Below, piece by piece: positions 10,476 through 32,767 of a stretch of 64,000 bases of DNA. Within the stretch, counting starts at the first letter, position 1; each line of letters begins with the position of its first letter. This DNA is from Terriglobia bacterium (GTDB lineage Bacteria; Acidobacteriota; Terriglobia; UBA7540): NCBI GenBank assembly GCA_035712365.1, contig DASTAW010000029.1, positions 62,001 through 126,000 on the forward strand, given 5' to 3'. Made by a program: the position numbers and the translations under genes. Below the pieces are notes generated by a model. That model did not search any database and was not told the origin of the DNA. It saw only the letters and a list, made by a program, of their open reading frames with translations.

Positions 10476-10823
10476 AAGCACAACCGCAGACGGTGGAAGC
10501 GGCAGGTGACACTTGCATGGATGGTCGAGTACCGAGAAACCTCAACTTTATTGCTGTTTTCGTAAAATTCGCAACCATTCGAGGCAATGCGTAAATAGTT
10601 GTTGAAGTCATAAGCAAGTTAAGGCAAGCTTATGGCCCAAGCTGTCGCAGCGGAAACCCTGAAAGCCCTTACTGAGGAGAGTTCCAGCTTCTGAGGCCGA
10701 GACGAAACATGGTTTCAGGTATGGCCAGAACAGCAAGCTCGATATTCTGCGGGAGCACGTCCAGGCGCACGTGCTGACAAAAGCCAGTGGGCAGTGAAGC
10801 GGCAGAAGATGAGGGGGTTCGAG
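10476..10823. other. Intergenic between repeat element and acyltransferase gene
   Basis: No convincing gene is seen. The stretch is somewhat AT-richer near 10540-10620 and probably holds the promoter of the downstream gene, but no consensus hexamer pair stands out. Confidence 0.35.
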
Positions 10824-11966
10824 ATGGAAGGAGTTAAGGAGCGAGCGGCTAGACACCCAAAGGACGCGGTCCAATCCCCGGTGGTTGCGAGCCGGATTGC
10901 ATCGCTGGATTTCTTTCGTGGTCTGACCATGTTCCTGCTGATCGGGGAATCGACCGAGCTTTACTCGTTACTGCGACATCCGGCTCTACACGGCACCCTG
11001 CTTGGCTTCATAGGCTGGCAACTCGATCATCATCCCTGGAACGGCCTCCACTTCTGGGACCTGGTCCAGCCCTTCTTCATGTTTATCGTCGGTGTGGCGA
11101 TGCCTTTCTCCTTCGGCAGGCGATGGGAGCACGGCGACAGTTGGGCGAAGACCTTCCATCATGCCCTCCAACGGTCCGTGCTGCTGCTCTTCTTTGGCTG
11201 GGCGCTCTATTGCATCGGCCCGGGCCACATCACCTTCGAGTTGTGGAATGTGCTGGCGCAACTCTCTTTTACCTACCTCGTTGCTTTCCTGATGATGCGC
11301 AAATCCACGCGGACGCAAATTGGCTTTACCTTCCTGCTGCTCATTATCACCGAAGTGCTGTACCGGACGTGGCCGGTTGCAGGATTTAATCAGCCCTTCG
11401 TCCCGGACCACAACTTTGGCTCCTGGGTGGATTTGGCGATCATGCCACAGCTTTCTGCCGGACACTGGGTAGCGTTCAACGCAATACCGACGACGGCACA
11501 CACCATGTGGGGGGTACTGGCCGGATGCGTGCTGAAGAGCAGCCGCACCCACTGGAACAAGATCAAGACGCTGGTTGTTCCGGGACTCATTGGCGTCATC
11601 GTCGGTTTTTCGCTGAATCCCGTGGATCCGATCATCAAGCGTATTTGTACCGCTTCCTTTGTGATTGTCAGCGGCGGTTTTTGTCTGCTGGCTCTGGCGC
11701 TTTCCTACTGGCTGATTGACGTGAAAGGCTGGAAGAAGTGGGCCCTCTTCTTCAACATCGTGGGGATGAATCCGCTTTTCATTTACCTGTTTACGAACAG
11801 CTATGGGGCGGAGTGGTTCCACAGGATCGCACAGCCCTTCACCATGGGGTTGTTTGGCTGGGCGGGGCAGCTCACAGGAGAAATAGTAACCAGCGTCGTC
11901 GTCTGGGGCATGCTCTGGTACGTCTGTTACTGGTTGTACAAGAAAAGGATCTTCATTAAGATTTGA
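10824..11966 (+). CDS. HGSNAT-like membrane acyltransferase (DUF5009/DUF1624 type)
   Basis: The protein of about 380 residues has ten or so hydrophobic helices and the N-terminal signature RIASLDFFRGLTMFLL, typical of bacterial relatives of heparan-alpha-glucosaminide N-acetyltransferase. That enzyme passes an acetyl group across a membrane to a terminal glucosamine. HHPWNGLHFWDLVQPFFMF contains the His/Asp region shared by the family. AGGGGG precedes the ATG at 10824, although the frame opens at 10794. It stands upstream of a DUF4380 protein and a PQQ dehydrogenase on the same strand, which fits a role in amino-sugar handling. Substrate is inference. Confidence 0.75.
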   Translation: MEGVKERAARHPKDAVQSPVVASRIASLDFFRGLTMFLLIGESTELYSLLRHPALHGTLLGFIGWQLDHHPWNGLHFWDLVQPFFMFIVGVAMPFSFGRRWEHGDSWAKTFHHALQRSVLLLFFGWALYCIGPGHITFELWNVLAQLSFTYLVAFLMMRKSTRTQIGFTFLLLIITEVLYRTWPVAGFNQPFVPDHNFGSWVDLAIMPQLSAGHWVAFNAIPTTAHTMWGVLAGCVLKSSRTHWNKIKTLVVPGLIGVIVGFSLNPVDPIIKRICTASFVIVSGGFCLLALALSYWLIDVKGWKKWALFFNIVGMNPLFIYLFTNSYGAEWFHRIAQPFTMGLFGWAGQLTGEIVTSVVVWGMLWYVCYWLYKKRIFIKI

Positions 11967-12275: not shown

Positions 12276-13685
12276 ATGCGATTGCGTGTGGCGGCCGTCG
12301 CGGTGTTGGCGCTGAGTTTTAGCCTGATATCTGCGGCATTTGCAGTTGGTCAGCAGGATGCCCCAGCGAGCGTCTGCACCGTTCAGCAAGCAGACTTTCA
12401 CGGCTGGAAAGCCGAGCAGATTTCGAACCAGTGGACGACACTGACCATCGTTCCGCAACTGGGCGGACGGTTGATGCAGGTCGAATTCGGCGGTCATCCT
12501 TATTTGTTTGTAAATCCCCAATACTATGGCCAGTATTTGCCTCCTTCCGAAGGAGCGGCCAAGGGCAAATGGTTCAACTACGGCGGCGACAAGGACTGGC
12601 CCCTGCCCGAAGGTTCCGAGGATGAGCAACACTGGGCGAGCGCCCGCTCCGACGTGCTGGACGACGGTGAATATTCACTAAAGGTCATCTCGCAAGGCAC
12701 GCAGTGTGCCGTCCAGTTGGAGGGTCCCTCTGACCCCAGGACGGGCCTTCAGTACTCACGCGTGATCAGCCTTGGCGCGAGTTCTCCGCGCATCACATTT
12801 CACGCAGTGATGAAGAACATCACCGGACATCCGATTGATTGGTCCATCCAATCGGTTTCCCAGTATGACACTGCCGACCCGCGCGACAAATCGCAATACA
12901 ACCACCAGTTCTGGGCGTTTACGCCCGTCAATCCGAACAGTTCTTATCTTGAAAGCTATCACGTACGCAGCGGACCGGCCGATCACCCCTCGTTTTCCAT
13001 CCGCGACGGCAGCCTGTTTGCTTTGCATTGGAAGTACCTGGAGGCGGAGGTCTGGCTGGATTCGCCGGCCGGTTGGGTGGCGGTTGTGGATGGCTTGCGG
13101 CAATATGCTATGGTGGAGCGCTTCAAATACCAAAAGACGGAAGAGTATCCCGGCAAAGCGTCGGTTATTTTTTACCTGAACGGGGCCAGGCTCCATCTCG
13201 ACCAGAATGGCATGCCCGCACTGCGGCCGTTGAACGCGCTGGACACGCCATACTACATGGAAGCGGAGTTAAACAGCCCAATGGTACATCTTCCAGCGGG
13301 AGGGACCTACGCCTTTGACACCGAATGGTTCCCGACCCGCGTGGGAGAGAACTTCAAGACCGTCAATGACGCCGGGTTGGTCAGCAATCCGCTGACGGTG
13401 ACCGAGACGGCAGGCGGCCTGAAGCTCGGAGGATCGTTTGGCGTATTCTACGCGGGACATCTGATTGCTCATCTCTACGACCGCGGAGGAATGCCGGTCA
13501 CCGACGTTCCTCTCATGGACGTTTCTCCTCTCGAGCTGGTAAAGCTCGACAAGACCATCGAGGTCCCGCCGGGCGTGGCCTGGCTTTCGGTCCACCTGGT
13601 GGACGCAGAGGGTTCGGATCGCGGAGCGCTGGGCGAGGTCCACGTGAATCCCCAGGAGACAATTCAACTGAATGAACCGCGCTAA
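12276..13685 (+). CDS. DUF4380-like exported protein
   Basis: The 469-residue protein has a signal peptide (MRLRVAAVAVLALSFSLI, cleavage near AAFAVGQ). The start of the mature part, LTIVPQLGGRLMQVEFGG, with LFVNP and KWFNYGGDKDWPLPEG, resembles the DUF4380 beta-sandwich, a fold related to galactose mutarotase and seen in carbohydrate-linked proteins. GGAGGAG lies just before the ATG at 12276. Its stop overlaps the start of the PQQ dehydrogenase by 14 nt, so the two are translationally linked. Binding or modification of sugars outside the cytoplasm is a reasonable guess only. Confidence 0.6.
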   Translation: MRLRVAAVAVLALSFSLISAAFAVGQQDAPASVCTVQQADFHGWKAEQISNQWTTLTIVPQLGGRLMQVEFGGHPYLFVNPQYYGQYLPPSEGAAKGKWFNYGGDKDWPLPEGSEDEQHWASARSDVLDDGEYSLKVISQGTQCAVQLEGPSDPRTGLQYSRVISLGASSPRITFHAVMKNITGHPIDWSIQSVSQYDTADPRDKSQYNHQFWAFTPVNPNSSYLESYHVRSGPADHPSFSIRDGSLFALHWKYLEAEVWLDSPAGWVAVVDGLRQYAMVERFKYQKTEEYPGKASVIFYLNGARLHLDQNGMPALRPLNALDTPYYMEAELNSPMVHLPAGGTYAFDTEWFPTRVGENFKTVNDAGLVSNPLTVTETAGGLKLGGSFGVFYAGHLIAHLYDRGGMPVTDVPLMDVSPLELVKLDKTIEVPPGVAWLSVHLVDAEGSDRGALGEVHVNPQETIQLNEPR

Positions 13686-15315
13686 AGCAACTTTGCTTCT
13701 CGGGATTGGGATTCTCCTTCTGGTTTCGCTCCCATGCTTTGGACAGCGGGGCCCCGTCTCCGCACGTATTGACGTGAACGAGCGCGATCTGCTGGCCAAG
13801 CCCGTCGGGGCGAACTGGACCTCGTACAACGGCGACTATACCGGCCGGCGCTATTCGAGCCTCTCGCAGATCACTCGCGAAAACGTCGACCGTCTCCGCG
13901 CGCAATGGGTATTCCATTCGAGGAATTCCCAACGGATGGAAGCGACCCCCGTTGTGATTAACGGCGTAATGTACATAACCAGCGCCAACGACGCCTATGC
14001 GCTAGATGCGCGCACGGGCCGGATGCTGTGGAGCCACACCCGCCCGATCACCACAGGCCTGATCGAAGATGCCTCCGCGCACCACAACCGGGGCGTCGCC
14101 GTCTGGCGTTCCAGGGTTTACATGGAAACTGACGATGCTCACCTCCTGTGTCTGGATGCCCGCAGCGGCAATCTGATCTGGGACGTGACGTTCGGAGACA
14201 TCAAGGAGAACCCTGCAAACGGCGCCACCAGCGCCCCGCTGATCGTTAACGGCAAGGTGATTATTGCCCCCGCCGGCGGCGACGCGGGGGTGAGAGGGCG
14301 GATTGAAGCGTTCGACGCAGAGACCGGCAAACTTGTGTGGAACTTCTGGACCATTCCAGGACCGGGTGAACCGAACTTTGGCACCTGGGGCGATGGCGAC
14401 ATCTGGCAGCACGGTGGCGCCACGGCCTGGATGCCGGGAACGTACGATGCCGAGACGAACACTCTCTACTGGGGCACCGGAAACGCGGCCCCGGACTTTG
14501 AAGGATCGCAACGCCCTGGGGATAATCTATATAGCGCCTGCGTGCTGGCGCTCGATCCCGATTCCGGAAAGCTGAAGTGGTATTTTCAATTTACTCCACA
14601 CGACCTGGGCGATTTTGATGCCGTCGAAACGCCTGTCCTCATCGATGGCAGTTACAAGGGCGAGCCGCGAAAGCTGCTGGTGGAAGCAAACCGCAACGGC
14701 TTCCTCTACGTGCTCGACCGGACGAATGGCAGGTTTCTCGGCGCTACTCTATTCGAACCGTCGGTTAATTGGGCCAAAGGCATTGACGCCCATGGCCGGC
14801 CAATAACCACCGGCGTGATTCCCACTCCAGATGGAACAAAATTTTGCCCGGGTATTGTGGGCGCCACCAACTGGTTCTCGCCATCGTACAATCCCCAGAC
14901 GCACCTTTTTTATTTCATGGCCCTCCGCACCTGCAACATCAGCCGCGCCACGCCTCAGCCTTTTGTCAAAGGCGAGAGTTATTACAACACGGGTGTTGAA
15001 CGCGTCCCCGGCGAGCAAGGGCAGAAAACCTTTGTGGCCTTTGACGTCGCCAACGGGAAAATCGCATGGCGCTATCCTCAGATCGGCAGAGGCAACTCCT
15101 GGGGGGGAACGATGACCACGGCAGGAGGCCTGGTCTTCTTCGGCGACGATGCCGAAAGTTTTGAGGCCATTGACGCACGCGACGGCACACCGCTTTGGCA
15201 TTTCAATACGGGACAGGAGATGCACGCTTCCCCCATGGCTTATGCGGTGGACGGCAAGCAGTATGTTGCCATCGCCGCAGGAAGCGACATCTTCAGTTTT
15301 GCCTTGCCGGATTAA
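13672..15315 (+). CDS. PQQ-dependent dehydrogenase (methanol/ethanol/glucose family)
   Basis: The 547-residue quinoprotein has a Sec signal peptide (LLLGIGILLLVSLPCFG) and the repeated Trp-docking motifs of the eight-bladed propeller (DARTGRMLWSH, DARSGNLIWD, DAETGKLVWNF, DPDSGKLKWYF). It oxidises an alcohol or sugar in the periplasm and passes electrons to a cytochrome c. Asp314 (in DLGDFD) aligns with the catalytic Asp and Asp316 with the extra ligand seen in lanthanide-dependent members. It lacks a C-terminal haem domain, so a separate cytochrome is needed; one lies at 18126. An SD-like AGGAG is 13 nt from the ATG. Confidence 0.88.
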   Translation: MNRAKATLLLGIGILLLVSLPCFGQRGPVSARIDVNERDLLAKPVGANWTSYNGDYTGRRYSSLSQITRENVDRLRAQWVFHSRNSQRMEATPVVINGVMYITSANDAYALDARTGRMLWSHTRPITTGLIEDASAHHNRGVAVWRSRVYMETDDAHLLCLDARSGNLIWDVTFGDIKENPANGATSAPLIVNGKVIIAPAGGDAGVRGRIEAFDAETGKLVWNFWTIPGPGEPNFGTWGDGDIWQHGGATAWMPGTYDAETNTLYWGTGNAAPDFEGSQRPGDNLYSACVLALDPDSGKLKWYFQFTPHDLGDFDAVETPVLIDGSYKGEPRKLLVEANRNGFLYVLDRTNGRFLGATLFEPSVNWAKGIDAHGRPITTGVIPTPDGTKFCPGIVGATNWFSPSYNPQTHLFYFMALRTCNISRATPQPFVKGESYYNTGVERVPGEQGQKTFVAFDVANGKIAWRYPQIGRGNSWGGTMTTAGGLVFFGDDAESFEAIDARDGTPLWHFNTGQEMHASPMAYAVDGKQYVAIAAGSDIFSFALPD

Positions 15316-15339: not shown

Positions 15340-16221
15340 TCAGATCGTGCTCTGGCCTCCTATGGCTGGTGATGAAAGAGATCCGGTGCGACGGGCGCCG
15401 TAATCGGGCGGAGACATCAGCGCCACAGCGTATTTGAAGCGGCTGCTGTCTTTCTGTCCAATTCTTGCCAGGCTGCCGCGTGCCACGGCCAGGCTCCGGT
15501 AGTAATCATCGTAGTGAAATCCCGTTTCACCCCTCCACATGGGGAAAACCGCGCAGGCTTCAACCCAGCGGTTGAAAACGTCGCTGACGTCCAGATAGAT
15601 ATCCTGCCGGAAGCCCTCCGCGTCCTCCCAGTTCTCAGCAAACAGAAGCTTACCCACCGAATGGGCCGTGTCTTTTCGTTTGATTCCTGGAAGCCCGGCA
15701 TAAAAGATCGCATCGTCCACGATGTTGTAACAGGCGCGATGGTCCTTGTGGTAGCTGCCCTTCCAATGCGTGATGATGATTTCCGGCTTGTGCTGCCGGA
15801 TGGCGTCGCACACCGCGAAGCGCGCTTCCTCGTCGTCGGGAAGTTCGCCGTCGGGGTAGGAAAGATAGGCCGTCTGTGCTCCCAGGATTTTGGCTGCCTT
15901 GCCGGTGGCCGATACCTGCATAGCGCCGTATTCCGCCTCTGCAATGGCCGGATTGCCCCGCTCGCCGTGGGTGAGGTTGAGAAAAATTCCCCGGCCCCCT
16001 GTGCTCACCTGACGGCCCACCGCTGCGCCCATGGTGAACAAGGCGTCTCCCGGATGAGCGGCAATGGCCATCAGCATGCCTGGCGCGGACTGCTCGGGGG
16101 TGTTTTCGGAAGGTCTCTGCCCAGGATTAGCACCGGGTCGGGCGCTGCCTGTTCCCACGGAAAGCGCGGCAGCCCCCATCCCAAGTTCTTTCAAAACGTC
16201 CCGGCGGGAGTGGTGCTTCAT
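15340..16221 (-). CDS. PIG-L family deacetylase, TAT-exported
   Basis: The 293-residue protein starts with a twin-arginine signal (HHSRRDVLKELGMGAAALS). The mature part has AAHPGDALF, the zinc site that usually reads HPDD, here with Gly in place of the first Asp. THGERGN, SYPDGELPDD and the second zinc motif HKDHRACYN follow. PIG-L enzymes remove acetyl from N-acetylglucosamine-type groups. The frame is open to 16338, but only the ATG at 16221 gives a signal peptide at the N-terminus. It lies 38 bp downstream of the SelA-like gene on the same strand, suggesting an operon. Confidence 0.85.
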   Translation of the reverse strand: MKHHSRRDVLKELGMGAAALSVGTGSARPGANPGQRPSENTPEQSAPGMLMAIAAHPGDALFTMGAAVGRQVSTGGRGIFLNLTHGERGNPAIAEAEYGAMQVSATGKAAKILGAQTAYLSYPDGELPDDEEARFAVCDAIRQHKPEIIITHWKGSYHKDHRACYNIVDDAIFYAGLPGIKRKDTAHSVGKLLFAENWEDAEGFRQDIYLDVSDVFNRWVEACAVFPMWRGETGFHYDDYYRSLAVARGSLARIGQKDSSRFKYAVALMSPPDYGARRTGSLSSPAIGGQSTI

Positions 16222-16259
16222 AGGAATTAGCTTTCGCGTTCTGCCGCCACAGTAGGGAA

Positions 16260-17540
16260 TCAGGCCGCGCTGGCCTTGGAAAGGACCTCGTGGAGACGCC
16301 TGGCAACAATCGCATCTTCTCCCGGCTGCATCATCCAAACGCCCACCACGATTATGTTCGGTCCGGCCGGAAGGCCATTCATCAGGCTGCCGGCATTGCC
16401 ACCCGTGGCTGGGTTCAGCGCAATGCTCGGCGTTCCCTGCAAGAGCTGGGTCTTCACGTCCTTGCCGGAGATCTTCACCCGTTTCATGTCATAGGTAATC
16501 AACAGGTGCGGGACGTTATTGGCTACCGGCGGCACAAAAATCCGGGTTTCGACCGATGGAATTTTCTGAACGGCGGCGGCAATCGTCTCAGCGCGCTTCT
16601 GGAAATCGGCGCGCATCGCCGCCTCATCCTGGTCAACGAACCAATCAACAGCCGCCACAAGTCCCACGATCTGTTCCTTGGAGACTTTCATGCCGCGCCC
16701 AACCGTGTCGCTGTAAGGGCAATTGTTCATCGCGGCCGCGTCAATCAGCTCTTTGCGGCCCAACAGCAATCCGCTGTTCTGGGGTCCACGCAAGCCTTTG
16801 CCGCCCGAAAACTGCACCAGGTCAAACCCCATCTGGGTGTACTCCCACAGCCGCGATATGGGCGGGACGTCAGCAGCCGCGTCGTTCGAGGCCGGCACGC
16901 CGTGCTTGTGCGCGATGCGGATCCAGTCTTCGCGGCTGATCTGCCCGCCCTGTGCAGCGTTAAAAAAATGCGCCATGGCCGTACGCGGCGTGAAAGCACG
17001 ATCGTAATCCTCCAGCGTTTCCACCTCCACCATCTTGACCCCGCAGCAACGGATGGCATGATCGTATTCGTACCGGTGCGCCCTTTGAATCAGCACTTCA
17101 TTGGGCAGATCGGAAACATCGTTCGGCACATTGAGGATGGCGCGCTCTCTCCCGCGAGTCATGGAGGCAGCCGTTGCCAGCGTCACTGCGGACGCCGCCC
17201 CGTCGCTTACCATCGCTGCTTCGCAACGCAATCTTTTGGCCAGATATTCTCCGGCGGCCTTTTGCAGCTCAATCAGTCCTACCGGATTCAAGGCCGCGCG
17301 TTCGACGGCTGCACGCACCTGCGGAGGCATGATGGACGCCGTCAGGATCGTATACGTGCCTGCCGCGTTGATAAAAGGAGTCACTCCCAGCTTGGCGTAG
17401 TAATCTTCTCCGGCTGGCGCTTCGTGACCCTGTGGCGCCGCAGCAAGGTCGGGGACCTGGCGCCCCGCTATTGCCGAAGCGGCGAGGACACCGCTTCCCC
17501 ACTTAAAAAATTTTCGTCGCGAAAGAAAGCTGGTTGCCAT
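16260..17540 (-). CDS. SelA-like PLP enzyme, TAT-exported (paralogue 1)
   Basis: The 426-residue protein has a textbook TAT signal (SRRKFFKWGSGVLAASAIAG). The body is a fold-type I PLP enzyme of the SelA / D-glucosaminate-6-phosphate ammonia-lyase group: TPFINAAGTYTILTAS at the front, DAAADVPP for the PLP-ring Asp, and QFSGGKGLRGPQNSG with the Schiff-base Lys. Characterised relatives eliminate ammonia from amino-sugar acids or make selenocysteyl-tRNA; SelA function is unlikely for an exported protein. A paralogue of the same length is at 33321-34601. It heads a minus-strand pair with the PIG-L gene. Confidence 0.82.
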   Translation of the reverse strand: MATSFLSRRKFFKWGSGVLAASAIAGRQVPDLAAAPQGHEAPAGEDYYAKLGVTPFINAAGTYTILTASIMPPQVRAAVERAALNPVGLIELQKAAGEYLAKRLRCEAAMVSDGAASAVTLATAASMTRGRERAILNVPNDVSDLPNEVLIQRAHRYEYDHAIRCCGVKMVEVETLEDYDRAFTPRTAMAHFFNAAQGGQISREDWIRIAHKHGVPASNDAAADVPPISRLWEYTQMGFDLVQFSGGKGLRGPQNSGLLLGRKELIDAAAMNNCPYSDTVGRGMKVSKEQIVGLVAAVDWFVDQDEAAMRADFQKRAETIAAAVQKIPSVETRIFVPPVANNVPHLLITYDMKRVKISGKDVKTQLLQGTPSIALNPATGGNAGSLMNGLPAGPNIIVVGVWMMQPGEDAIVARRLHEVLSKASAA

Positions 17541-18125
17541 AAGTTTGCCTCTTCTATCTGATTCAAACGGTCAGGACCGGCCGCTCGACCAATGACCGGT
17601 TGACTCGACGGATGTCTTGAAAAGAGCCTGCAAGCATCCTTCTGCCTGTTCCTGAGCTACGCCTAAATTACCTTGCCGGGACGGGTGGGTCAAGCAATTA
17701 TCCTGCACGGCTTGCCCCGTTTTGCTGCCAGGCATCGCCGCAAAGCCGCGCAGGTGCGCCTTCCTGGAAGTCAGAGCGGGACCAGAATTACCTGTTCGCG
17801 GATCAGCGCCGTGCGCCAGCGCCAGGGGGTCGGACATTCAGGTCCGACAGAAAACGTGTGATTACACTGCCGGTCGAGCAAATTGACAGCGCCCATGGGT
17901 TGCCGTAGACTGCCCGGAGTCGCGGGCAGCAGGAAATGAACGGAAACGCTTACAGAAAAGGGAGACACTAACCCGGTCGAAATTGCTTATGGACTGGGAC
18001 GATTTGTCTTGTCCATGCGGGGCGGCCAAAGGGCGCTTGATATGAATAGACCGAAGGGCGATGCCGGCTTGATAGGAACCGTGCAGCGGCGCCGGCAGCA
18101 GTGCGGAAGAGCAGCGCATCGACAT
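17541..18125. other. Divergent intergenic region
   Basis: This separates the minus-strand SelA-like/PIG-L pair from the plus-strand cytochrome c gene and should hold both promoters. Several short open frames cross it but none has family features. No consensus hexamer pair, riboswitch or operator palindrome is obvious. Confidence 0.4.
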
Positions 18126-18968
18126 GTGGATGGCAACTCCACGCCGACCACCACACGGCGCACGATCTTCCTCTGCGCCTGTCTTTTCGCCATCGCAACG
18201 GTTTGCCCTGCTCAACAGACCAACTCAAACATGGGACAGCAGCAACGCGATCACGCAAGGCGGTCGTTTGCGAACCGCTGCGCCCCCTGCCACGGTCTGG
18301 ATGGGCGTGGCGGCGAACACGCCCCTGCCATTGTTAACACTTCGGGCGCATCGGCCAGATCGGACCAGGAAGTGGCGCGGATAATCCGCAGCGGCATTCC
18401 CGACAAAGGGATGCCGTCGTTCCACTTCCTGACGAACCCGCAGATCGATGAGATTATCAGCTACATCCGGTATTTGCGGGGCGGCGGAAACACCGCGAAT
18501 CTGAAGGGCGAGCCGGCAGCGGGATCAAAACTCTTTTTCGGCACCGCCCGATGCTCTGACTGCCACATGATGAACGGCAAAGGGGGCTTTATCGCGTCTG
18601 ACCTGTCTGAGTTCGGGCGCACTCACTCAGAAGAGGAAATCCGAGAAATGATCGTGCAGCCCAATAAGGTCCCTAGTCCCGAGGGGCAACGGGTCACGAT
18701 CGTCACGAAGTCTGGCCAGACTCTGTCCGGCCTGGCGCGAAACGAGGACAATTTCTCAATCGCATTGCTTAGCGAAGACGGCGTCTTTCATCTTCTGATG
18801 AAGTCCGAAATCTCGAAGATGACCCGCGAACCGCAGTCGATCATGCCGGACGACTACGGAAAAAAGCTGAGCTCGGCGCAACTGGATGACCTTGCCAGCT
18901 TTTTGATTCTTAGCTCAGCCCATAAAAGCCCGCCGACCGGGAGCGAGAGTTCGGAAGGCTCCGAATGA
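18126..18968 (+). CDS. Dihaem cytochrome c, exported
   Basis: Starting at the GTG at 18126 gives 280 residues with a signal peptide (RRTIFLCACLFAIATVCPAQ). Two haem motifs follow: CAPCH at about 52-56 and CSDCH at about 143-147. GMPSFHFL may supply the distal Met of the first haem. The C-terminal third (VTIVTKSGQTLSGLARNED) resembles the tail of Acidobacteriota/Verrucomicrobia haem-binding proteins. The frame opens further upstream at 18009, but that leaves the signal peptide buried. It is a candidate electron acceptor for the PQQ dehydrogenase at 13672. The exact start is uncertain. Confidence 0.85.
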   Translation: MDGNSTPTTTRRTIFLCACLFAIATVCPAQQTNSNMGQQQRDHARRSFANRCAPCHGLDGRGGEHAPAIVNTSGASARSDQEVARIIRSGIPDKGMPSFHFLTNPQIDEIISYIRYLRGGGNTANLKGEPAAGSKLFFGTARCSDCHMMNGKGGFIASDLSEFGRTHSEEEIREMIVQPNKVPSPEGQRVTIVTKSGQTLSGLARNEDNFSIALLSEDGVFHLLMKSEISKMTREPQSIMPDDYGKKLSSAQLDDLASFLILSSAHKSPPTGSESSEGSE

Positions 18969-19034
18969 TGGTCCCGAGAGGTCCACTCGGCGTTGGCTGC
19001 GGCAAATAACATATGGAAAGGTGTGGCGTCCTCA

Positions 19035-20009
19035 ATGAAATCAATAATCGTCGGATTGGCCCTGTTACTTTCGCTGCCGGTCGCGCTGAAGGCGCAGGCG
19101 CAGCATGCTCCACGCAAATTCGAGCTCCGCGCAAATTCGCCAAAGTTCTGGAAGCTGATTGGGCGGCATGCGCAAATGAAGCGCGTGGCGACCGGGTTCG
19201 GTTTTACGGAGGGGCCTGTGTGGGACCCGCACGGGTTTCTCTACGTGAGCGACGAAATCCAAAACAAGATTTTTAGGGTTTATCCCGATGGGCACAAGGA
19301 AACTTTGATTTCTCTGGGCAATCCCGACGGAAACACGTTCGACCGCGAATTTCATCTTCTCGATTGCGCGAGTGTGCTGAGGGCGGTTATTCAGGTCGAT
19401 CCCGACGGCCATTACAAGGTGCTGGCGGACCAGGTTGAAGGAAAGAAGTTCAATACCCCGAACGATATTGTGATTGGCCCTGACGGCGCCATCTACTTTA
19501 CCAACCCTACCCTTGATCTTACCAAAGACCAGAAACAGGAGATTCCTTACCAGGGCATTTACCGGCTCGATGCGCAAGGCGACGTTCAGCTCCTTGCCAA
19601 AGATATGGCCCAGCCGAACGGGCTGGCGTTTTCACCGGACGGCAAGAAACTTTACGTGGACGACAGCGAGCGGAAGGACATCCGCGTGTATGATTTTCTG
19701 CCGGGCGGCAAATTGGCAAACGGCCGTCAGTTCGGAACCGAAGAGGGCGGCCCGCATGAAGGCGTTCCTGACGGCATGCGGGTGGACCGCAAGGGCAACC
19801 TGTTCGTCACCGGGCCTCTCGGCGTCTGGGTCTGGGACCCCGAAGGAAACCATCTGGGCACGATTGTGGTCCCCGAACAGCCGGCCAATCTGGCCTGGGG
19901 CGATCGGGGTTACGGCACGCTCTACCTGACGGCGACGACATCGGTCTACAAGATCCGTACGCGGGACCGCGGGTTCATTCCTTACCTGTCGAAGCCGAAA
20001 CGTCACTGA
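19035..20009 (+). CDS. SMP-30/gluconolactonase/LRE family protein, exported
   Basis: The 324-residue protein has a signal peptide (MKSIIVGLALLLSLPVALKA) and a six-bladed propeller with FTEGPVWDP (metal-binding Glu), NTPNDIVIGPDGAIYFTNP and LAFSPDGKKLYVDDS. These are the calcium-site Glu, Asn and Asp stretches of sugar-lactonases. The enzyme would open an aldonolactone to the acid in the periplasm. It follows the cytochrome c gene by 66 bp on the same strand. Lactonase activity is inferred from the family; some members have other esterase roles. Confidence 0.85.
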   Translation: MKSIIVGLALLLSLPVALKAQAQHAPRKFELRANSPKFWKLIGRHAQMKRVATGFGFTEGPVWDPHGFLYVSDEIQNKIFRVYPDGHKETLISLGNPDGNTFDREFHLLDCASVLRAVIQVDPDGHYKVLADQVEGKKFNTPNDIVIGPDGAIYFTNPTLDLTKDQKQEIPYQGIYRLDAQGDVQLLAKDMAQPNGLAFSPDGKKLYVDDSERKDIRVYDFLPGGKLANGRQFGTEEGGPHEGVPDGMRVDRKGNLFVTGPLGVWVWDPEGNHLGTIVVPEQPANLAWGDRGYGTLYLTATTSVYKIRTRDRGFIPYLSKPKRH

Positions 20010-20295
20010 CCGTTTGGCGCCAGGACTTCCGGGATGGCGTTGCCTTGCGATCTCCTTTTTCCTTCGACGCATCTGACTCGAACTGCATCAACTCCGCGGG
20101 TACTCGGGTGGACCATGCCACATCGACCTTTGTAGCTACACAAAACAATTGCAACAAGCCCGGTTCTCGCGTATAAGTGGGGGTCGAATAAATCCAAACT
20201 TCCGGTGTGATTCACCAGTCGAGATTGAGACGCGGGAACACCCCTCGCGTGCCGACCGCGGGTGGATCTTTCATGGCGCCGGCCAAGGAGAGGAA

Positions 20296-20784
20296 ATGAA
20301 GAAAGCGACGATTGTCCTGGCGATTGCTTCGGTGGCAGCGATAACGTTTGGCTGTGCGGGGCCAAGTAACCAACAGCCTGCGGAGGCGGCTGCCCAGATG
20401 CCCGCCGAACATGTGCAGGCCATCAACCCGCCGGGAACTCCGGCAGGGTTGCCGTTCAGCAATGGAATTCTTGTGGGTAATACCCTTTACGTGGCGGGTA
20501 CGCAGGGAACCGACGCCAACGGAAAGCTTCCGCCGGATATTGAGAGCCAGACCCGGGCCGCCCTGCAGTTGATCCAGAAAATCGTCGAGGGCGGAGGGAT
20601 GACCATGGGCAACGTGGTGGCCGTGAACGTCTATCTGTCGGACGTTAATGAGTTCGGGAAGATGAACAACGCCTACAAGACGTTTTTCCCCGATCCCAAA
20701 CCCACGCGTACAACCGTGCAGGTGGCCAAGCTGGTGAATGGCGCAAAAATTGAAATCTCCGCTATCGCCGTAAAGCCGCGCTAG
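20296..20784 (+). CDS. RidA family lipoprotein
   Basis: The 162-residue protein begins with a lipoprotein-type signal (MKKATIVLAIASVAAITFGC) and AAGGAGAGG before the ATG at 20296. The mature part is a RidA (YjgF/UK114) domain: GILVGNTLYVAGTQGTD, VYLSDVNEFGKMN, and the active-site region PTRTTVQVAKLVNGAKIEI with the catalytic Arg and Glu kept. RidA hydrolyses reactive enamines/imines released by PLP enzymes. RidA is normally cytoplasmic, so membrane anchoring outside is unusual and pairs naturally with the exported SelA-like enzyme nearby. Confidence 0.85.
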   Translation: MKKATIVLAIASVAAITFGCAGPSNQQPAEAAAQMPAEHVQAINPPGTPAGLPFSNGILVGNTLYVAGTQGTDANGKLPPDIESQTRAALQLIQKIVEGGGMTMGNVVAVNVYLSDVNEFGKMNNAYKTFFPDPKPTRTTVQVAKLVNGAKIEISAIAVKPR

Positions 20785-20827
20785 TGTAGTAATTCCCATT
20801 ACGCAAGGCCAGGCCGTTGTGAGAGGC

Positions 20828-20888
20828 CGAAAATTGGGGCGCCAGCGAATGGCCCGAACGCAAAGCGGCGGCAAGCCGCCGCACTCCA
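20828..20888. repeat. Dispersed hairpin repeat, copy 1 of 2
   Basis: The stretch CGAAAATTGGGGCGCCAGCG through GCGGCGGCAAGCCGCCGC and CACTCCA matches 59843-59905 at most positions in the same orientation. It ends in a GC hairpin (GCGGCGGC-AA-GCCGCCGC). Confidence 0.7.
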
Positions 20889-20972
20889 TAACCCGCAAGT
20901 CTGGTGAAGCTTTTGCTGTTCGACTCCGGCAGGCTTGATCGAATGACCAAAGCGAAGGGAGAACAGAGAACC

Positions 20973-21899
20973 ATGATTCAACGCAGGGGCGCTAGGATTT
21001 TCTTCGGCATCGTGCTCGTCCTGAGTTCTTCCTTTTTTGCGATTCCCGCTTATGGCCAGCTTGGAATGTTTTCTCATCAGCAACTCATCGAGTTTACGCC
21101 GGATTGGCACGGGGCGCGGTTTGCCGACGGACGTCCGGACGTGCCCGATTCCATGCTGCAGCGCTTGCAGGACGTGACGGCGGAACAAGCCTGGGAAGTG
21201 CTGCAGCGCGCGGGATATCACAACCAGTTTGAGTCTGGGTGGACGGTAGTCAACCCGCAGAAGCAGAGGCTGGTGGGACGCGTGGTGACGGCGGTGTTCA
21301 TGCCGTTTCGGCCCGACTTGGATTCGGTAATCCGTGCCAATGGCAAGAAGGAAGGGGAATCAGTTCAGGGCGAGAATTCCTGGATCATCAACCGGCTGCA
21401 GCCGGGGGACGTAATGGTGGTGGACCTGTTTGGGAAAATCAAGGACGGGACGATCATCGGGGGGAACCTGGCCACCTCGGTGTACACAAAGACCCATAAC
21501 GGAATCATCGTGAATGGGTCGATCCGCGATACGGCCGAGATCGAGGAGATGAAAGGGTTCGAGGTTTTTTGCCGCGGGACGGACCCATCAGCTTTGCGGA
21601 ACGTGACGCTGATGGGAATCAACGTGCCCATCCGCATGGGGCAGGCGACCGTCATGCCGGGGGACATCGCGGTGAGCGATCCGGAAGGGATCACGTTTAT
21701 CCCGCCGCAACTGGCGGAGCAGGTGGCGGACCACGCGGAAATGGACCACCTGGTCGATGATTGGGGATTTATGATGCTGCGGGAGAAGAAGTACAGCCCT
21801 GGGCAAATCGACGGCCGATGGACGCCGCAGATGATTGAAGAGTTCAATGCTTACGCGGCCAAACGTGGATCGAAGCTGAGGATGCCAGTTCCAAAATAG
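20973..21899 (+). CDS. RraA-like aldolase family protein, exported
   Basis: The 308-residue protein has a Sec signal (RRGARIFFGIVLVLSSSFFA, cleavage near AYGQ) and AAGGGAGAAC before the ATG at 20973. The core holds the RraA pattern: VDLFGKIKDGTIIGGNLA and GIIVNGSIRDTAEIEEM with the Arg-Asp pair, then MPGDIAVSDPEGITFIPP. Cytoplasmic relatives cleave 2-keto-4-hydroxy acids to pyruvate. An N-terminal extension and a C-terminal WTPQMIEEFNAYAAKRG tail enlarge it relative to standard RraA. Together with the SelA-like and RidA proteins it could complete breakdown of a keto-deoxy sugar acid, but this is inference. Confidence 0.78.
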   Translation: MIQRRGARIFFGIVLVLSSSFFAIPAYGQLGMFSHQQLIEFTPDWHGARFADGRPDVPDSMLQRLQDVTAEQAWEVLQRAGYHNQFESGWTVVNPQKQRLVGRVVTAVFMPFRPDLDSVIRANGKKEGESVQGENSWIINRLQPGDVMVVDLFGKIKDGTIIGGNLATSVYTKTHNGIIVNGSIRDTAEIEEMKGFEVFCRGTDPSALRNVTLMGINVPIRMGQATVMPGDIAVSDPEGITFIPPQLAEQVADHAEMDHLVDDWGFMMLREKKYSPGQIDGRWTPQMIEEFNAYAAKRGSKLRMPVPK

Positions 21900-22025
21900 A
21901 ACTTGATCGTTTGATTTAGCACGGCAGAGATATCCCACCTTTATTGAACAGGGCAGCAGTCCCAATCGCGATCATTGTCAGTTTTCATCCGGGTCTGCCG
22001 CGATTTCGAACGGAGCCATTCAGCA

Positions 22026-24308
22026 ATGAAAAACGCTGATGACAGTGTTCTCCAGCCTCGCATGTCGCGGCGCAGGTTTCTGACCGGCACGGCAGGAGCT
22101 GCCGCGCTGTCGTCGCTGTCTGGCGTGGCTTCCGCCGAACCGGCGATCGGCCAAAGCAGCGGAGGTGAAGCGATCTCTAACACAACGCTGCTCCGCGTTG
22201 ACGTAAATCCAGGCCATGTGGTGAACTCTTTTGACCCTGATGAAAGCCTGGGAAGTTCGATGGACGAATTGTCCCCATCGATCATCGAAAAGATCTACAC
22301 TCCTGAAATTATTCGTGAGTGCCTTTCCGCGGGCTGGGGACCCATTACCTACCGCCTCCACACCGAACTGGCGATTGAAGCCTGGCATTGGAATTCGGAC
22401 GGCGAGTGGAGTGACCCTGGCAAGCGGCAAGGGTACTTTACCGGCAATGCAACGCCCAAAGAGTCTTTGCGCAATTCGTTTGGCTATCCGCTTCCGCGCC
22501 GCGGCACCACCAGCAACGGAGGGGCCGCCCGAGGCTACTCGCGGCTGACGGACGGCGATTCCGATACCTTCTGGAAGAGCAATCCCTACCTGACGCGGAC
22601 CTATACCGGAGAGGATGACGCGCTGCATCCCCAGTGGATCATCCTGGACCTTGCTGCGATGCACAAAGTGAATGCCATTCGCATCGACTGGGGCAACCCG
22701 TATGCGAGTGCTTACGACGTGCAATACTGGACCGGCAACGACCCCATGAGCTGGGAGGGCCAGTATACTGCGGGCGGCGGAGGGGTTGCGCAGCAAGCCT
22801 CGGGGCGCTGGAACCTTTTCACCTATGGCAAAGTGCGTGACGGAAGCGGTGGGCGAGTGACGCTGAAGCTTTCCCGGTCGCCAGTGGCAACACGTTGGAT
22901 TCGGGTCGTGATGACGAAGTCCGCTAATGGCCCGGGACCGTCTGCCACCGGCGATCCGCGCGACCGGCTTGGCTATGCGATCCATCAGGTATATGCAGGC
23001 ACACTACAGGATGATAGAACCTTTGTCGACCTGGTGAAACACGCCCCTGACGCCAGCCAGACGGCAACCTACTGTTCCTCGACGGACCCCTGGCATTCCG
23101 CTTCTGACCTGAATCCTCACGGCTCGCAGACCGGGTTTGATTTGTTTTTCACCAGCGGGATCACGAACAAGCTGCCGGCCATCATCCCCGTGGCTATTCT
23201 CTACAGCATTCCGGAAGACGCCGCAGCCCAGATCGCATATCTCAAGAAACGAGGTTATCCTGTCGGGCGGGTTGAGATGGGCGAAGAATGCGACGGGCAA
23301 TATTACATGCCCGAAGATTACGCTGCTCTCTATCTGCAATTCGCTGATGCCATCCACAAGGTTGATCCTGACATCAAGCTTGGCGGGCCGGTGTTTCAGG
23401 GCATCAACCAGGACATTTCCGTCTGGCCGGACGTGCAGGGACGGACTTCCTGGTTCGGGCGCTTTTTGGATTACCTCAAGGCGCGCGGGCGAATTCAGGA
23501 CCTCACCTTCGTCTCCTTTGAACACTATCCCTTTGATCCATGTTCGGTGAACTGGGCGGATCTCTATCGCGAGCCGGAACTGACGCGAAGCTGCCTCCAG
23601 GCGCTGCGCGATGACGGTCTGCCGGATGGCGTACCGCTGATGAATACGGAGAGCAATGTTTCCTGGGAGATGACGCCGTATATGTCGGACATCTTCTCTG
23701 GTCTTTGGCTGGCCGACAGCGTCGGCAGCTTCTTTCTCGAGGGCGGCGGCGCCTATTTCCATTCGCCCATCCAGCCTCAGGCGCCCAACCATGGGTGCCG
23801 CGGATGGGGCACCTGGAGCAACTTCGTTTGCGACTCCAATTTTAAGATCAAAGGATATACGGCGGAGTACTACGCCAGCCATCTGATCAACCTGGAATGG
23901 GCGTCCCATCACTCGGGCGTTCACCACATGTTTCGAGTTGTGGGGACCGTGCCGGATGCCGCGGGAAACGCGCTGATTACGAGCTATGCGCTGCAGCGGC
24001 CGGACAGCGATTGGGCAATCTTGCTGATTAACAAAGACCAGAATAATGCCCGGACGATTCAGGTGGCGTTTGAGGATTCAGAAAGCGGGCGGGTGAGCCA
24101 TTTTGCGGGTCAGGTCCAGGTGGTGACGTACGGCAGCGAACAATACGTCTGGCATTCAACGGGACCGGACTCCCACGCCGACCCGGACGATCCGCCCCGA
24201 CGCGCGACTGTTCCTGGCGGCCCGGACGCGCGTTTCACATTGCCGAAAGCTTCCATCACCGTGCTGCGGGGCAGGCTTGAAGCTGGAGAGCGGCAACAGT
24301 CCTACTGA
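22026..24308 (+). CDS. Glycosidase-like protein with discoidin domain, TAT-exported
   Basis: The 760-residue protein starts with a TAT signal (MSRRRFLTGTAGAAALSS). A discoidin (F5/8 type C)-like segment near residues 180-320 (SRLTDGDSDTFWKSNPY, HPQWIILDLAAMHKVNAIRI) binds carbohydrate. A TIM-barrel-like part follows: RVEMGEECDGQYYMPEDYAA has a Glu suited as acid/base and PLMNTESNVSWEM a Glu suited as nucleophile, the spacing of clan A retaining glycosidases. The glycoside hydrolase family cannot be named. The stop codon TGA at 24306 is the first three bases of a MITE-like element, so the original C-terminus may have been cut. Confidence 0.65.
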   Translation: MKNADDSVLQPRMSRRRFLTGTAGAAALSSLSGVASAEPAIGQSSGGEAISNTTLLRVDVNPGHVVNSFDPDESLGSSMDELSPSIIEKIYTPEIIRECLSAGWGPITYRLHTELAIEAWHWNSDGEWSDPGKRQGYFTGNATPKESLRNSFGYPLPRRGTTSNGGAARGYSRLTDGDSDTFWKSNPYLTRTYTGEDDALHPQWIILDLAAMHKVNAIRIDWGNPYASAYDVQYWTGNDPMSWEGQYTAGGGGVAQQASGRWNLFTYGKVRDGSGGRVTLKLSRSPVATRWIRVVMTKSANGPGPSATGDPRDRLGYAIHQVYAGTLQDDRTFVDLVKHAPDASQTATYCSSTDPWHSASDLNPHGSQTGFDLFFTSGITNKLPAIIPVAILYSIPEDAAAQIAYLKKRGYPVGRVEMGEECDGQYYMPEDYAALYLQFADAIHKVDPDIKLGGPVFQGINQDISVWPDVQGRTSWFGRFLDYLKARGRIQDLTFVSFEHYPFDPCSVNWADLYREPELTRSCLQALRDDGLPDGVPLMNTESNVSWEMTPYMSDIFSGLWLADSVGSFFLEGGGAYFHSPIQPQAPNHGCRGWGTWSNFVCDSNFKIKGYTAEYYASHLINLEWASHHSGVHHMFRVVGTVPDAAGNALITSYALQRPDSDWAILLINKDQNNARTIQVAFEDSESGRVSHFAGQVQVVTYGSEQYVWHSTGPDSHADPDDPPRRATVPGGPDARFTLPKASITVLRGRLEAGERQQSY

Positions 24309-26689: not shown

Positions 26690-29600
26690 ATGAAACAGGG
26701 GCGATTCTCTCAGGTCATGCTGGTTGTTTTGGCTTTGACGATGGTCGCTGTGGTTCCGCAGTTGCGAGCGCAGACGGACACGGGGTCCGTCTCCGGCGCG
26801 GTAACGGACCCGTCGGGTGCTGCCGTTCCGGGGGCCAATGTTACCCTGCGTAACGGTGAGACGGGCTCGGTGACGAAAACCACCTCAAACTCCAGCGGGG
26901 TCTATGGCTTCCCTGTGGTGCCGGTTGGCTCAAACTACAGCGTTACGGTGGAGGCAAAGGGCTTCAGGACTTATGTGCAGAGTGGAATCACTCTGCTCAT
27001 CAATCAGGCCCTGCGCGTCGATGCCAAGCTCGCCATCGGTAGCGAACAGCAGTCGGTGGAAGTTTCGGCCCAGGCGGTCCAGGTAGCCACCGAAAATACT
27101 TCCATGGGCGACGTGATCGAGAGCCGCAAAATGCTCTCTCTGCCGCTCAACGGCCGCAGCTACATCGATCTGCTCGGTCTCCAGGCTGGCGTCGTGCCGG
27201 AAACCACCCAGGGATCATTGCAGGATCGCCCGGTGGCAGGCACTGGCAACTCCGGAAACTTCTCGGTAAATGGAGGCAGGGAAGCTGCCAACGGATTCAT
27301 GCTGAATGGCGGCAGCGTGGAAGAGGGGAGAAACAATGGCGCCGGCCTCGTCCCCAATCTGGATTCGATCGAGGAATTCAAGGTGATCACCAACGCCGGC
27401 TCGGCAGAATATGGCCAGTATTCCGGAGCGATTGTCAACGTGGTGACCAAAGGCGGCACGAATGAATGGCACGGTTCCGGGTTTGAGTTCGTTCGCAACG
27501 AGAAGTTCGACGCACGTAACTTCTTCGATCCGGACCGCGGAGCATTTAAGAGGAATCAGTTTGGAGGCACCATTGGCGGGCCGATCATCAAGAACCGGCT
27601 TTTCATTTTCGGCGATTATCAGGGAACGCGCCAGTCTCTCGGAGTTTCAACCGGCTCGATCTCGGTGCCTACTGCCGATCAGCGGGCAGGCAATGTGGCT
27701 GACTTGCTTGATCCGAATCCTAGCAAGTTTTCGCCTTCGCTCGTCAAGGGGTGCGCTCCGGGGAATGGTTGTCTGAACGACGTCTTGAGCGCCCGACTGG
27801 GTTATACCGTGAATGACGGGGAACCGTATTACACTCCTGGCTGCGCGAGTACCGCGGCTTGTGTTTTCCCCGGTGGCATCATTCCCCAGAGCGCCTGGTC
27901 GGCGCCTTCCCTTGCACTCGAGCAATTTATTCCCGAGCCAACTCCCGGCCTGGGCGGTGCGACGTTCTCGACGACGTCTCAAAAACAGCACTTGCGTGAC
28001 GATAAATTCTCCGCGCGTGGAGACCTTGATACCGCAGGCTATGGCCGCTGGTCATTGTACTATGCGCTTGATAACACCAACCTGCTGGATCCTTTCCCTG
28101 CGGCGAACGTTCCGGGTTTCGCTGCTTCAACTCCCCAGCAGGCGATGCAAACCGTCCTCAGCAATACCCGCACATTCGGTTCGAGGAATGTGAATGAAGC
28201 CCACGCCGCTTTCTTCCGCACCGCCATGACCCAGCGCCAGCCCCAGGGAGGCTTGGTGTCGGACCTGTCCTCGCTGGGATTCGTCACGGGAGGTTTAGGC
28301 ATCATTCCTGTGGTGCCGAGCCTTCAGGGTGTCCCTCTTACCACGCTTGACAACACGGGAGTCAGCTTCGGTCTGCCGGACGGCACAACCGGCCAGTTTA
28401 ACAACACCTATCAGGTGTCCGATAGCTTCTCCTCGGTCCGGGGAAGACACACCATAAAGTTCGGAGGCAACTACCAGCGGTTCCAGATCAACGAAAGAAA
28501 CACTTACGCCCAGAACGGCGTCTTTGATTTCGATGGCTCGGAAACGGGCAGCGACTTTGCCGATTTTCTGATTGGGGCGCCGGTGGGGTTTATCCAATCC
28601 AGCAGGCAGTTTCTGGATTCACGATCAGAATACGGCGCGCTGTATGTGGCAGACAGCTACAAGATGAAATCGAACTTGACGCTCAATTACGGGTTAAGGT
28701 GGGAAACCAGCACCTTCTTCCGTGACAAGTTAAATAGGACCCCGAGCAATTGCAGAATCCAGGCGATTAACTATAATGTCCAGTCGACGATATATCCGAC
28801 TGCGCCCAAGGGCTGGCTGTGTCCTGGAGATCCGGGCGTCGCCCAAGGTCTGGCTCCCAACGATTACAAGAATTTCGCGCCCCGGATCGGCGTCGCATAC
28901 TCTCCCGGTTTCAGCAGCGGCCTGATAGGCAAGGTCTTTGGCGGCCCCGGCAAATCCAGCATCCGCGCCTCCTATGGCATTTACTACACGAACGTCGAAG
29001 ACCTCACCCAGTTTTTCGAGGTAGGTGATGTTCCGGCAGGTCTGTTTTACGTGAGTCCCACGCAGGTTTACTATGACCTTCCGTATAAAAACCGCGCAAC
29101 CCCGGGAGGCCCCGGCCAGCGGTTCCCCTTTACGGTTCCCAATCCGCAAACCATCAACTGGGCGCAGCTACAGCCTATCGCGAGTTCTCCCGGATTTGAT
29201 CTGAACAACAAGCTTCCTTACTCACAGCACTATGACTTCAGCATCCAGCGACAGTTTGGCGGCTCGACGCTCATGACTCTCGCCTATGTAGGGACAAACG
29301 GGCATCACCTGATAGCCGGTTATTCGGCAAATCCAGGTATCGCAGCCGTCTGTCTGGCGACACCGGGTTGCGATCGAAATGGTGAAGACTCCACATACGC
29401 CCTGAACGGAGGAAACTTTCAATACGGGACGCGTTCCCATTCGGTGACTTCGGGCCGATTCGCATTCGGACAGGGCCTGGGCGCCATACTGGACTTCGGG
29501 AGTAACAACTACACAGCAACGATTGCCAATTCCGCATACAATTCCCTGCAAGTTACGATGGAGAAAAGGGTGGGCGCCGTGCAGTTTCTTGGCGCTTACA

Positions 29601-32272: not shown

Positions 32273-32767
32273 ATGTTCAATATACCAGGGACGCACGAGC
32301 CAGTCACGAATTTGGCGCATTCGCCCAAAGCGGAAGCTGGTCCAGCCGCAGCTTTCTCCGGCGTTGCCGCGCAGGGCCAGGGCGGAGTCCAGAAACTCGG
32401 TTACGATGGCCAGCCTGCCAAGGGAGGGATCTCCCCGGTGGTTGTACACGATGGCCTGATCTACGTGGCGGGCCAGGGCGCCAATGAGCATCAGGAGGAG
32501 GCGACGCTGGACATTACGACCCACGTTCAGAGGGCGATGGACAACGTCAAGAAGCTGGTGGAGGCGGCGGGCGGCGACATGGACCATGTCCTGCAACTCA
32601 CCGTGTATCTGGCGACGCTGGAATTTTACGACGCCATGAACAAGGCTTACCGTCCATATTTTCCGAACCGAGGTCCGGCCCGCTGCACGGTTGCGGTGGC
32701 CGGGATTCCCGGCAAATCTTTGGTTGAAATAAGTTGCATTGCGGCAGTCGTCCGCCAACAAGGATGA
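32273..32767 (+). CDS. RidA family protein (cytoplasmic form)
   Basis: The 164-residue protein uses the ATG at 32273, preceded by AGGAGG. It has GLIYVAGQGANEHQ, VYLATLEFYDAMNKAYRPYF, and the active-site region ARCTVAVAGIPGKSLVEI with the catalytic Arg and Glu kept. No signal peptide is present. RidA deaminates imine intermediates of PLP enzymes. It is followed 26 bp later by a second RidA that does carry an export signal; the two are about 60 % alike over the core by eye, so this is a recent tandem duplication with split location. Confidence 0.88.
   Translation: MFNIPGTHEPVTNLAHSPKAEAGPAAAFSGVAAQGQGGVQKLGYDGQPAKGGISPVVVHDGLIYVAGQGANEHQEEATLDITTHVQRAMDNVKKLVEAAGGDMDHVLQLTVYLATLEFYDAMNKAYRPYFPNRGPARCTVAVAGIPGKSLVEISCIAAVVRQQG

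Follow-up and report, generated by a model that had tools for sequence, protein, structure and literature searches.

Two exported SelA-RidA gene pairs in a Terriglobia genome and a putative envelope route for removing nitrogen from amino-sugar acids

Genes of the two clusters

A 64,000-nucleotide stretch of a Terriglobia bacterium genome (Acidobacteriota; GenBank assembly GCA_035712365.1, contig DASTAW010000029.1, positions 62,001 to 126,000), referred to here as the window, carries two clusters of genes for exported enzymes (Table 1). Each cluster contains a SelA/DgaE-like pyridoxal 5'-phosphate (PLP) enzyme with a twin-arginine translocation (Tat) signal, SelA1 in the first and SelA2 in the second. 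One exported SelA-RidA pair thus lies in each cluster, the second of which spans 32.3-39.1 kb. Families were assigned by Pfam and NCBIfam profile searches of the window proteins, and N-termini were judged from candidate start codons and ribosome sites. An earlier interpretation of the letters alone, the sequence-only reading, had proposed an envelope-located pathway for oxidation and cleavage of an N-acetyl amino sugar, encoded within 15.3-24.3 kb. All of the families it named are present and clustered, the glycosidase being recognizable only from a weak GH39-like stretch and the acyltransferase lying far under its cut-off. The set nevertheless extends over ~10.8-24.3 kb, and the second cluster had been overlooked.

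SelA1 and the PIG-L deacetylase gene are adjacent on the minus strand, with PIG-L ~38 bp downstream of SelA1, and likely share an operon. The cytochrome, SMP-30, RidA1, RraA-like and F5/8C genes diverge from SelA1 on the plus strand over a gap of almost 600 bp.

Table 1. Coordinates, export signals and profile matches of the window genes discussed (Sec, general secretory pathway; PQQ, pyrroloquinoline quinone)
Feature	Position	Strand	Export signal	Match or remark
NagX/HGSNAT-like membrane acyltransferase	10794..11966	(+)		NF046061 140 bits, far under 480 cut-off
PQQ-dehydrogenase-like beta-propeller	13672..15315	(+)	Sec	PF01011 304 bits
PIG-L type deacetylase	15340..16221	(-)	Tat, MKHHSRRDVLKELGMGAAALSVG; N-terminus MKHHSRRDVL	PF02585 82.5 bits
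SelA1, DgaE/SelA-like fold-type-I PLP enzyme, putative amino-sugar-acid ammonia-lyase	16260..17540	(-)	Tat, MATSFLSRRKFFKW	TIGR01437 E 5.5e-47
c-type cytochrome, two CxxCH	18126..18968	(+)	Signal if GTG start	PF13442, TIGR02603
SMP-30/gluconolactonase-like (SGL)	19035..20009	(+)	Sec	PF08450 162 bits
RidA1	20296..20784	(+)	Sec, atypical lipobox, MKKATIVLAIASVAAITFGCA	PF01042 105 bits
RraA/HMG-aldolase-like	20973..21899	(+)	Sec	PF03737 87 bits
F5/8C-domain glycosidase-like, 777 aa	22062..24308	(+)	Tat, MSRRRFLTGTAG	PF00754; weak GH39-like stretch E 0.055
TonB-dependent-receptor-like outer-membrane protein, between clusters	26690..30241	(+)		N-terminal carboxypeptidase-regulatory-like domain
RidA2	32273..32767	(+)	No signal	tblastn and open reading frame; PF01042 83 bits at matching place
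RidA3	32794..33261	(+)	Tat, KRRTFLTNLAAVAASVWG; strong ribosome site	PF01042 85 bits
SelA2, second SelA/DgaE-like enzyme	33321..34601	(-)	Tat, SSDRRTFVKWAVALPLLG	TIGR01437 E 9e-46
Enolase-superfamily, sugar-acid dehydratase-like	34762..36132	(-)	Tat	PF13378/PF02746; under all NCBIfam cut-offs
UxuA-like mannonate dehydratase	36229..37332	(-)	Tat	PF03786 239 bits; NF003027 213.8 (cut-off 191)
EF_0837-type amidohydrolase/deacetylase	37748..39112	(+)	Sec	NF006689 379 (cut-off 371)
Gfo/Idh/MocA oxidoreductase, glycoside 3-dehydrogenase-related	59913-61277		Tat	BT_2158 family, under cut-off

Export and conservation of the core

RidA is seen as a guard that protects the cytoplasm from reactive enamines, and sugar-acid PLP lyases are likewise regarded as cytoplasmic; aldolase-like proteins and deacylases of the kinds found here, too, normally reside there. 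In an open-access literature search, no paper on an exported RidA or an exported SelA-like lyase was found. At this locus, as the sequence-only reading had noted, every soluble protein of its list bears a Tat or Sec signal, the signal of the cytochrome depending on a GTG start. When a strict Tat rule was applied to homologues, 79 of 82 SelA and 30 of 44 RidA sequences were positive, against shuffled expectations of 1.3 and 0.8, respectively; two of the three SelA sequences missed by the rule read TTRRTFV and TTRRAFV. The same rule scored none of 12 cytoplasmic window proteins, none of four cytoplasmic SelA homologues and 5% of other long open reading frames. The export signals are above chance level. 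A twin-arginine near the N-terminus is found in SelA1 orthologues of Acidobacteriota, Gemmatimonadota (L019, L020) and Bacteroidota (L022, L023). In a phylogenetic tree that contained five non-exported sequences, 93 exported SelA-like sequences form one clade (support 0.945), with the cytoplasmic homologues outside it; the long branches L118 and L119 are placed without support.

The phylum was sampled by a SelA profile search over 396 genomes, and neighbourhoods of up to 20 kb were examined at 71 SelA loci, a first set included. Other phyla were sampled through 11 contig-search loci and plasmid matches. The SelA profile matches 43 of the 396 genomes and the amidohydrolase profile 40, of which 35 are also SelA genomes (hypergeometric 5e-37). 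Locus counts are not phylogenetically independent, and the genus-level test is the fairer one: 18 of 21 amidohydrolase genera are among the 23 SelA genera of 211 (8e-19). Within 1.5 kb of SelA at the 71 loci lie RidA at 34, the amidohydrolase at 29, a TonB receptor at 18 and an exported RraA at 14. By our estimate, the chance of finding RidA that near SelA is <1%, given seven RidA genes in a genome of 4.67 Mb.

The plasmid pACIX902 of Granulicella tundricola shows the arrangement in its most compact form, with TonB receptor, RraA, SelA1, RidA, SelA2, amidohydrolase and lactonase genes in that order and all in one direction; the order is similar at other Terriglobia loci. A homologue of the second-cluster amidohydrolase (68-74% identical) stands directly beside SelA1 in L015-L018, and L016 carries PQQ dehydrogenase, RidA, cytochrome, amidohydrolase, SelA1 and SelA2. 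The closest relative found, L013 (SelA 79-80%), keeps SelA, PIG-L (83% identical) and NagX as neighbours, and the cytochrome, SMP-30, RidA and RraA genes were not found within ~10 kb upstream.

From these comparisons, the conserved unit is an exported core of one or two Tat SelA/DgaE-like PLP lyases, a Tat or Sec RidA, a Sec RraA-like protein and, also exported, a deacylase of EF_0837 type; a TonB receptor frequently lies beside it. The PIG-L, PQQ-like dehydrogenase, cytochrome, SMP-30 and glycosidase genes are local additions. The gene list of the sequence-only reading as a whole is thus not conserved, even in L013. Its SelA-like, RidA and RraA-like members do recur together across the phylum with their export signals, so for these three neither a lack of linkage nor a cytoplasmic prediction speaks against the reading. 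It had further asked whether these genes co-occur solely in exported form; for RidA this does not hold in the host genome, where four RidA genes have no signal. The F5/8C glycosidase-like protein, also counted as a pathway member, does not track with SelA genomes and was rejected from the core: it occurs in 6 of 297 genomes, and the five apart from the host all fall outside the SelA set.

Further copies of core components were observed in the host genome. Contig C64 (L151 8704-10029) carries a second EF_0837-type amidohydrolase, 74% identical; contig C27 (L101 9841-11295) a third SelA/DgaE-like protein, whose signal a simple heuristic classes as Tat-type; and contig C19, at ~7.9-9.3 kb (L126 / L150), a Sec-signal protein with three RidA domains. 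Multi-domain exported RidA is also found near SelA in L073, L079 and L100.

Active-site residues, proposed chemistry and alternatives

By sequence, DgaE, the D-glucosaminate-6-phosphate ammonia-lyase, is the closest characterised protein to the SelA-like enzymes (profile 193 bits, versus 176 for Cap15), with ~27% identity to SelA1 over 355 residues. The DgaE family cut-offs are not reached, SelA1 scoring 160 versus 385 bits for TIGR01437 and 128 versus 600 bits for NF047797. The positions of the PLP lysine of DgaE (Lys213 in our alignment, numbered 217 in the text of the DgaE paper) and of Arg226 are K and R in both SelA1 and SelA2. In DgaE, manual docking put the substrate carboxylate close to Arg226, and the phosphate close to a group of arginines to which 301 and 332 belong (PMC9529869). 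The positions of Arg301/Arg332 are occupied by H/N in SelA1 and by T/L in SelA2, and Arg346 is beyond the alignment. The loop with His162/His163 in DgaE reads A/Q in SelA1 and G/D in SelA2. Histidine is not among the common residues at these two positions in exported homologues, and both histidines are retained in the cytoplasmic homologues of Rhizobium and Thalassospira. The H163A mutant of DgaE releases the enamine (PMC9529869). From the absence of Arg301, Arg332 and His162/163 equivalents in SelA1 and SelA2, we infer an unphosphorylated substrate, release of the enamine, and RidA as the partner that receives it.

We propose, with middling confidence and from sequence comparison, that the exported module, presumably periplasmic, strips nitrogen from unphosphorylated 2-amino-2-deoxy-aldonic acids. 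The most plausible of these is glucosaminate, derived from oxidised chitin or N-acetylglucosamine (GlcNAc). In this scheme, whose order of reactions we infer, the TonB receptor would admit the compound, and C1 oxidation followed by a lactonase would yield the aldonic acid. The latter would involve the PQQ-like protein, cytochrome c and SMP-30 in the window and other families elsewhere, and is the weakest step here. A deacylase would then free the amine, PIG-L at this locus and the EF_0837-type amidohydrolase, with its conserved His, Lys and Asp positions, in most relatives. Homology and the conserved PLP and carboxylate residues suggest that the Tat SelA-like enzyme eliminates the C3 hydroxyl; without the protonating histidine of DgaE, it probably releases an enamine. 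The co-exported RidA, whose catalytic Arg135 and Glu150 are invariant in 14 sequences (alignment A3), would turn this into the 2-keto-3-deoxy acid and ammonia. As a last step, this acid may be split into pyruvate and an aldehyde by the exported RraA-like protein; alternatively, the cell may take it up. The IRD active-site motif of the RraA-like protein aligns with 3NOJ, and the Gly-x-x-Arg-Asp motif is kept in 18 of 18 exported-type RraA sequences.

Enzymes analogous to those of the window for C1 oxidation, lactone opening or deacylation recur near SelA-like genes elsewhere. In Halosolutus (L138 4992-10834), a cytoplasmic cluster combines PIG-L, SelA-like, Rid, glucose 1-dehydrogenase and lactonase genes; in Daejeonella, Tat-SelA is accompanied by a lipoprotein-type SGL and a GSDH-cytochrome; and in Granulicella, an AA7/BBE-type FAD oxidase-like protein and a lactonase lie near SelA. 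This recurrence across different families points to amino-aldonic acids, short of proof. Amino-sugar-acid chemistry is the best reading in view of the relationship to DgaE, the Halosolutus cluster and the ong pathway described below; that part of the sequence-only reading survives, its full list of steps does not.

Several observations weigh against this proposal. The substrate was deduced from homology and gene neighbours, and gaps interrupt the alignment at the histidine loop of DgaE. The arginine at position 226 is not shared by the whole family: 73 of 94 sequences have R or K there. RidA also adjoins the cytoplasmic homologues of Rhizobium and Thalassospira that keep both histidines, so histidine loss is a plausible but not a necessary reason for RidA. 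The window genes fall into two clusters with ~8 kb between them, and conservation of the core does not extend to the PQQ/SMP-30/PIG-L set of the window. In addition, the AlphaFold2 model of SelA1 (mean predicted local distance difference test score 82) is equally close in fold to Cap15, an O2-dependent PLP decarboxylase-monooxygenase.

It should be mentioned that Granulicella-type operons (L062-L078, L134) contain a tandem of two distinct SelA paralogues, both with Tat signals. Because the longer one has Gln at the Arg226 position, these paralogues may act on different substrates or assemble into a mixed complex.

The match to Cap15 raises an alternative, in which the exported SelA-like protein would be an oxygenase/decarboxylase that uses PLP and O2 and has beta-hydroxy-alpha-amino acids as substrates, while RidA would remove imines. 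Cap15 (8T7J) leads the structural matches with Z 38.7 and 29% identity, closely followed by DgaE with Z 36.8. It acts on a sugar-derived beta-hydroxy-alpha-amino acid and depends on O2 (PMC6384614), and PvdN is named with it among O2-using PLP enzymes (PMC7497351). The fold match together with the O2 dependence keeps an oxygenase among the rivals, as an unlikely one: Z values within ~2 fail to separate Cap15 from DgaE, the sequence profile favours DgaE, and the deacylase, lactonase and aldolase neighbours suit a lyase giving a keto acid better. We regard as equally improbable a module for N-acyl-D-amino acids or peptidoglycan-derived beta-hydroxy amino acids of the D-serine/D-threonine type. 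The amidohydrolase would then be a D-aminoacylase and the SelA-like protein a D-amino-acid dehydratase working with RidA, as in serine/threonine dehydratases. RidA classically handles 2-aminoacrylate. In the ong pathway, D-serine and D-threonine are further substrates of the deaminase OngC (PMC9537276), and the deacetylase OngB has its origin among the D-aminoacylases (PMC12017989). However, the neighbours are of sugar type (lactonase, RraA, NagX, glucose dehydrogenase, aldose epimerase, galactonate dehydratase), and SelA1 is of fold type I, unlike OngC, which is of fold type III.

Somewhat less probable still is that the full first cluster forms one dedicated pathway, as the sequence-only reading had it, with oxidation of an N-acetyl amino sugar falling to the PQQ enzyme and the PQQ being made or salvaged by the cell. 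The adjacency of SelA1 and PIG-L, the divergent cytochrome, SMP-30, RidA and RraA genes, and the gene content of L016 are in line with it. The PQQ-like protein meets the TIGR03075 cut-off (482.7, cut-off 480.05), scores 531 for TIGR04528 'acido-empty-quinoprotein' (cut-off 650), and has the Asn and the catalytic Asp. The vicinal CC pair of 1KB0 is replaced, which counts against this pathway. In the host genome (98.9% complete), no PqqE reaches the cut-off and PqqC was not found, the PqqC control being silent in all control genomes and salvage being possible. The PQQ oxidation step is doubtful, and the PIG-L, SMP-30 and glycosidase genes are not conserved with SelA. A chance grouping of unrelated exported enzymes in a phylum that exports many Tat sugar enzymes, such as the Gfo/Idh (59913-61277), UxuA and enolase proteins of the window, is very improbable given how strongly SelA, RidA and the amidohydrolase are linked and co-occur.

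Extending the amino-aldonic acid proposal beyond the window, we suggest tentatively that Acidobacteriota and some Gemmatimonadota and Bacteroidota carry out nitrogen removal, and perhaps C-C cleavage, of oxidised amino sugars wholly outside the cytoplasm, through a Tat PLP lyase that no longer has a proton donor of its own and a dedicated exported RidA, the exported clade having arisen once. If so, the conserved SelA-RidA pair would mean that enamine chemistry takes place, and is kept in check, in the envelope, and RidA would gain a physiological partner. It would also suggest how abundant soil bacteria obtain nitrogen and carbon from oxidised chitin with no prior sugar import or ATP for phosphorylation.

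Comparison with known systems

We have compared the module with characterised relatives of its enzymes and with two pathways of similar logic. Selenocysteine synthase SelA belongs to the same superfamily as the window protein, but this identity was rejected, since the score for TIGR00474 is 34.3 versus a cut-off of 267.9 bits and the window protein is exported. DgaE shares with SelA1 the fold, the PLP lysine and the carboxylate arginine. SelA1 differs in being Tat-exported, in lacking His162/163 and two phosphate arginines, and in falling under the family cut-offs. Cap15, equally close in fold, is biosynthetic and O2-dependent and has no gene context in common with SelA1. The EF_0837/COG3964 amidohydrolases (2OGJ; PRK09237/TIGR03583) include the window protein by the NF006689 cut-off; it differs from them in being Sec-exported and linked to Tat-SelA. 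The open-access literature search on COG3964 gave nothing on point.

A glucosaminate-type route with an assumed phosphorylation step has been predicted in the haloarchaeon Natrarchaeobius (PMC12343721). Haloarchaeal clusters such as that of Halosolutus resemble the window in combining a PIG-L/CE14 deacetylase, a SelA-like protein, Rid, glucose 1-dehydrogenase and lactonase. Their SelA-like and Rid proteins have no export signal, unlike the window enzymes. The SelA-like proteins of Halosolutus and Haloprofundus also lack Arg301 and Arg332 of DgaE, so that the Natrarchaeobius route, to which the Halosolutus cluster is related, may work without the kinase assumed for it.

The ong pathway of Pseudoalteromonas degrades 2-acetamido-2-deoxygluconic acid (GlcNAc1A) in the cytoplasm with the deacetylase OngB, the deaminase OngC, the RidA protein OngD, which is essential in vivo, and KdgK (PMC9537276). 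Both systems join a deacetylase, a PLP deaminase and RidA with TonB receptors, and both follow the logic of converting an N-acetyl-aldonate to 2-keto-3-deoxygluconate and ammonia. The ong enzymes are cytoplasmic, with OngB of D-aminoacylase type and OngC of fold type III. In the exported module, the deacylases are instead of EF_0837 and PIG-L type, the putative lyase is a fold-type-I SelA-like protein, all components are exported, and RraA takes the place of the kinase.

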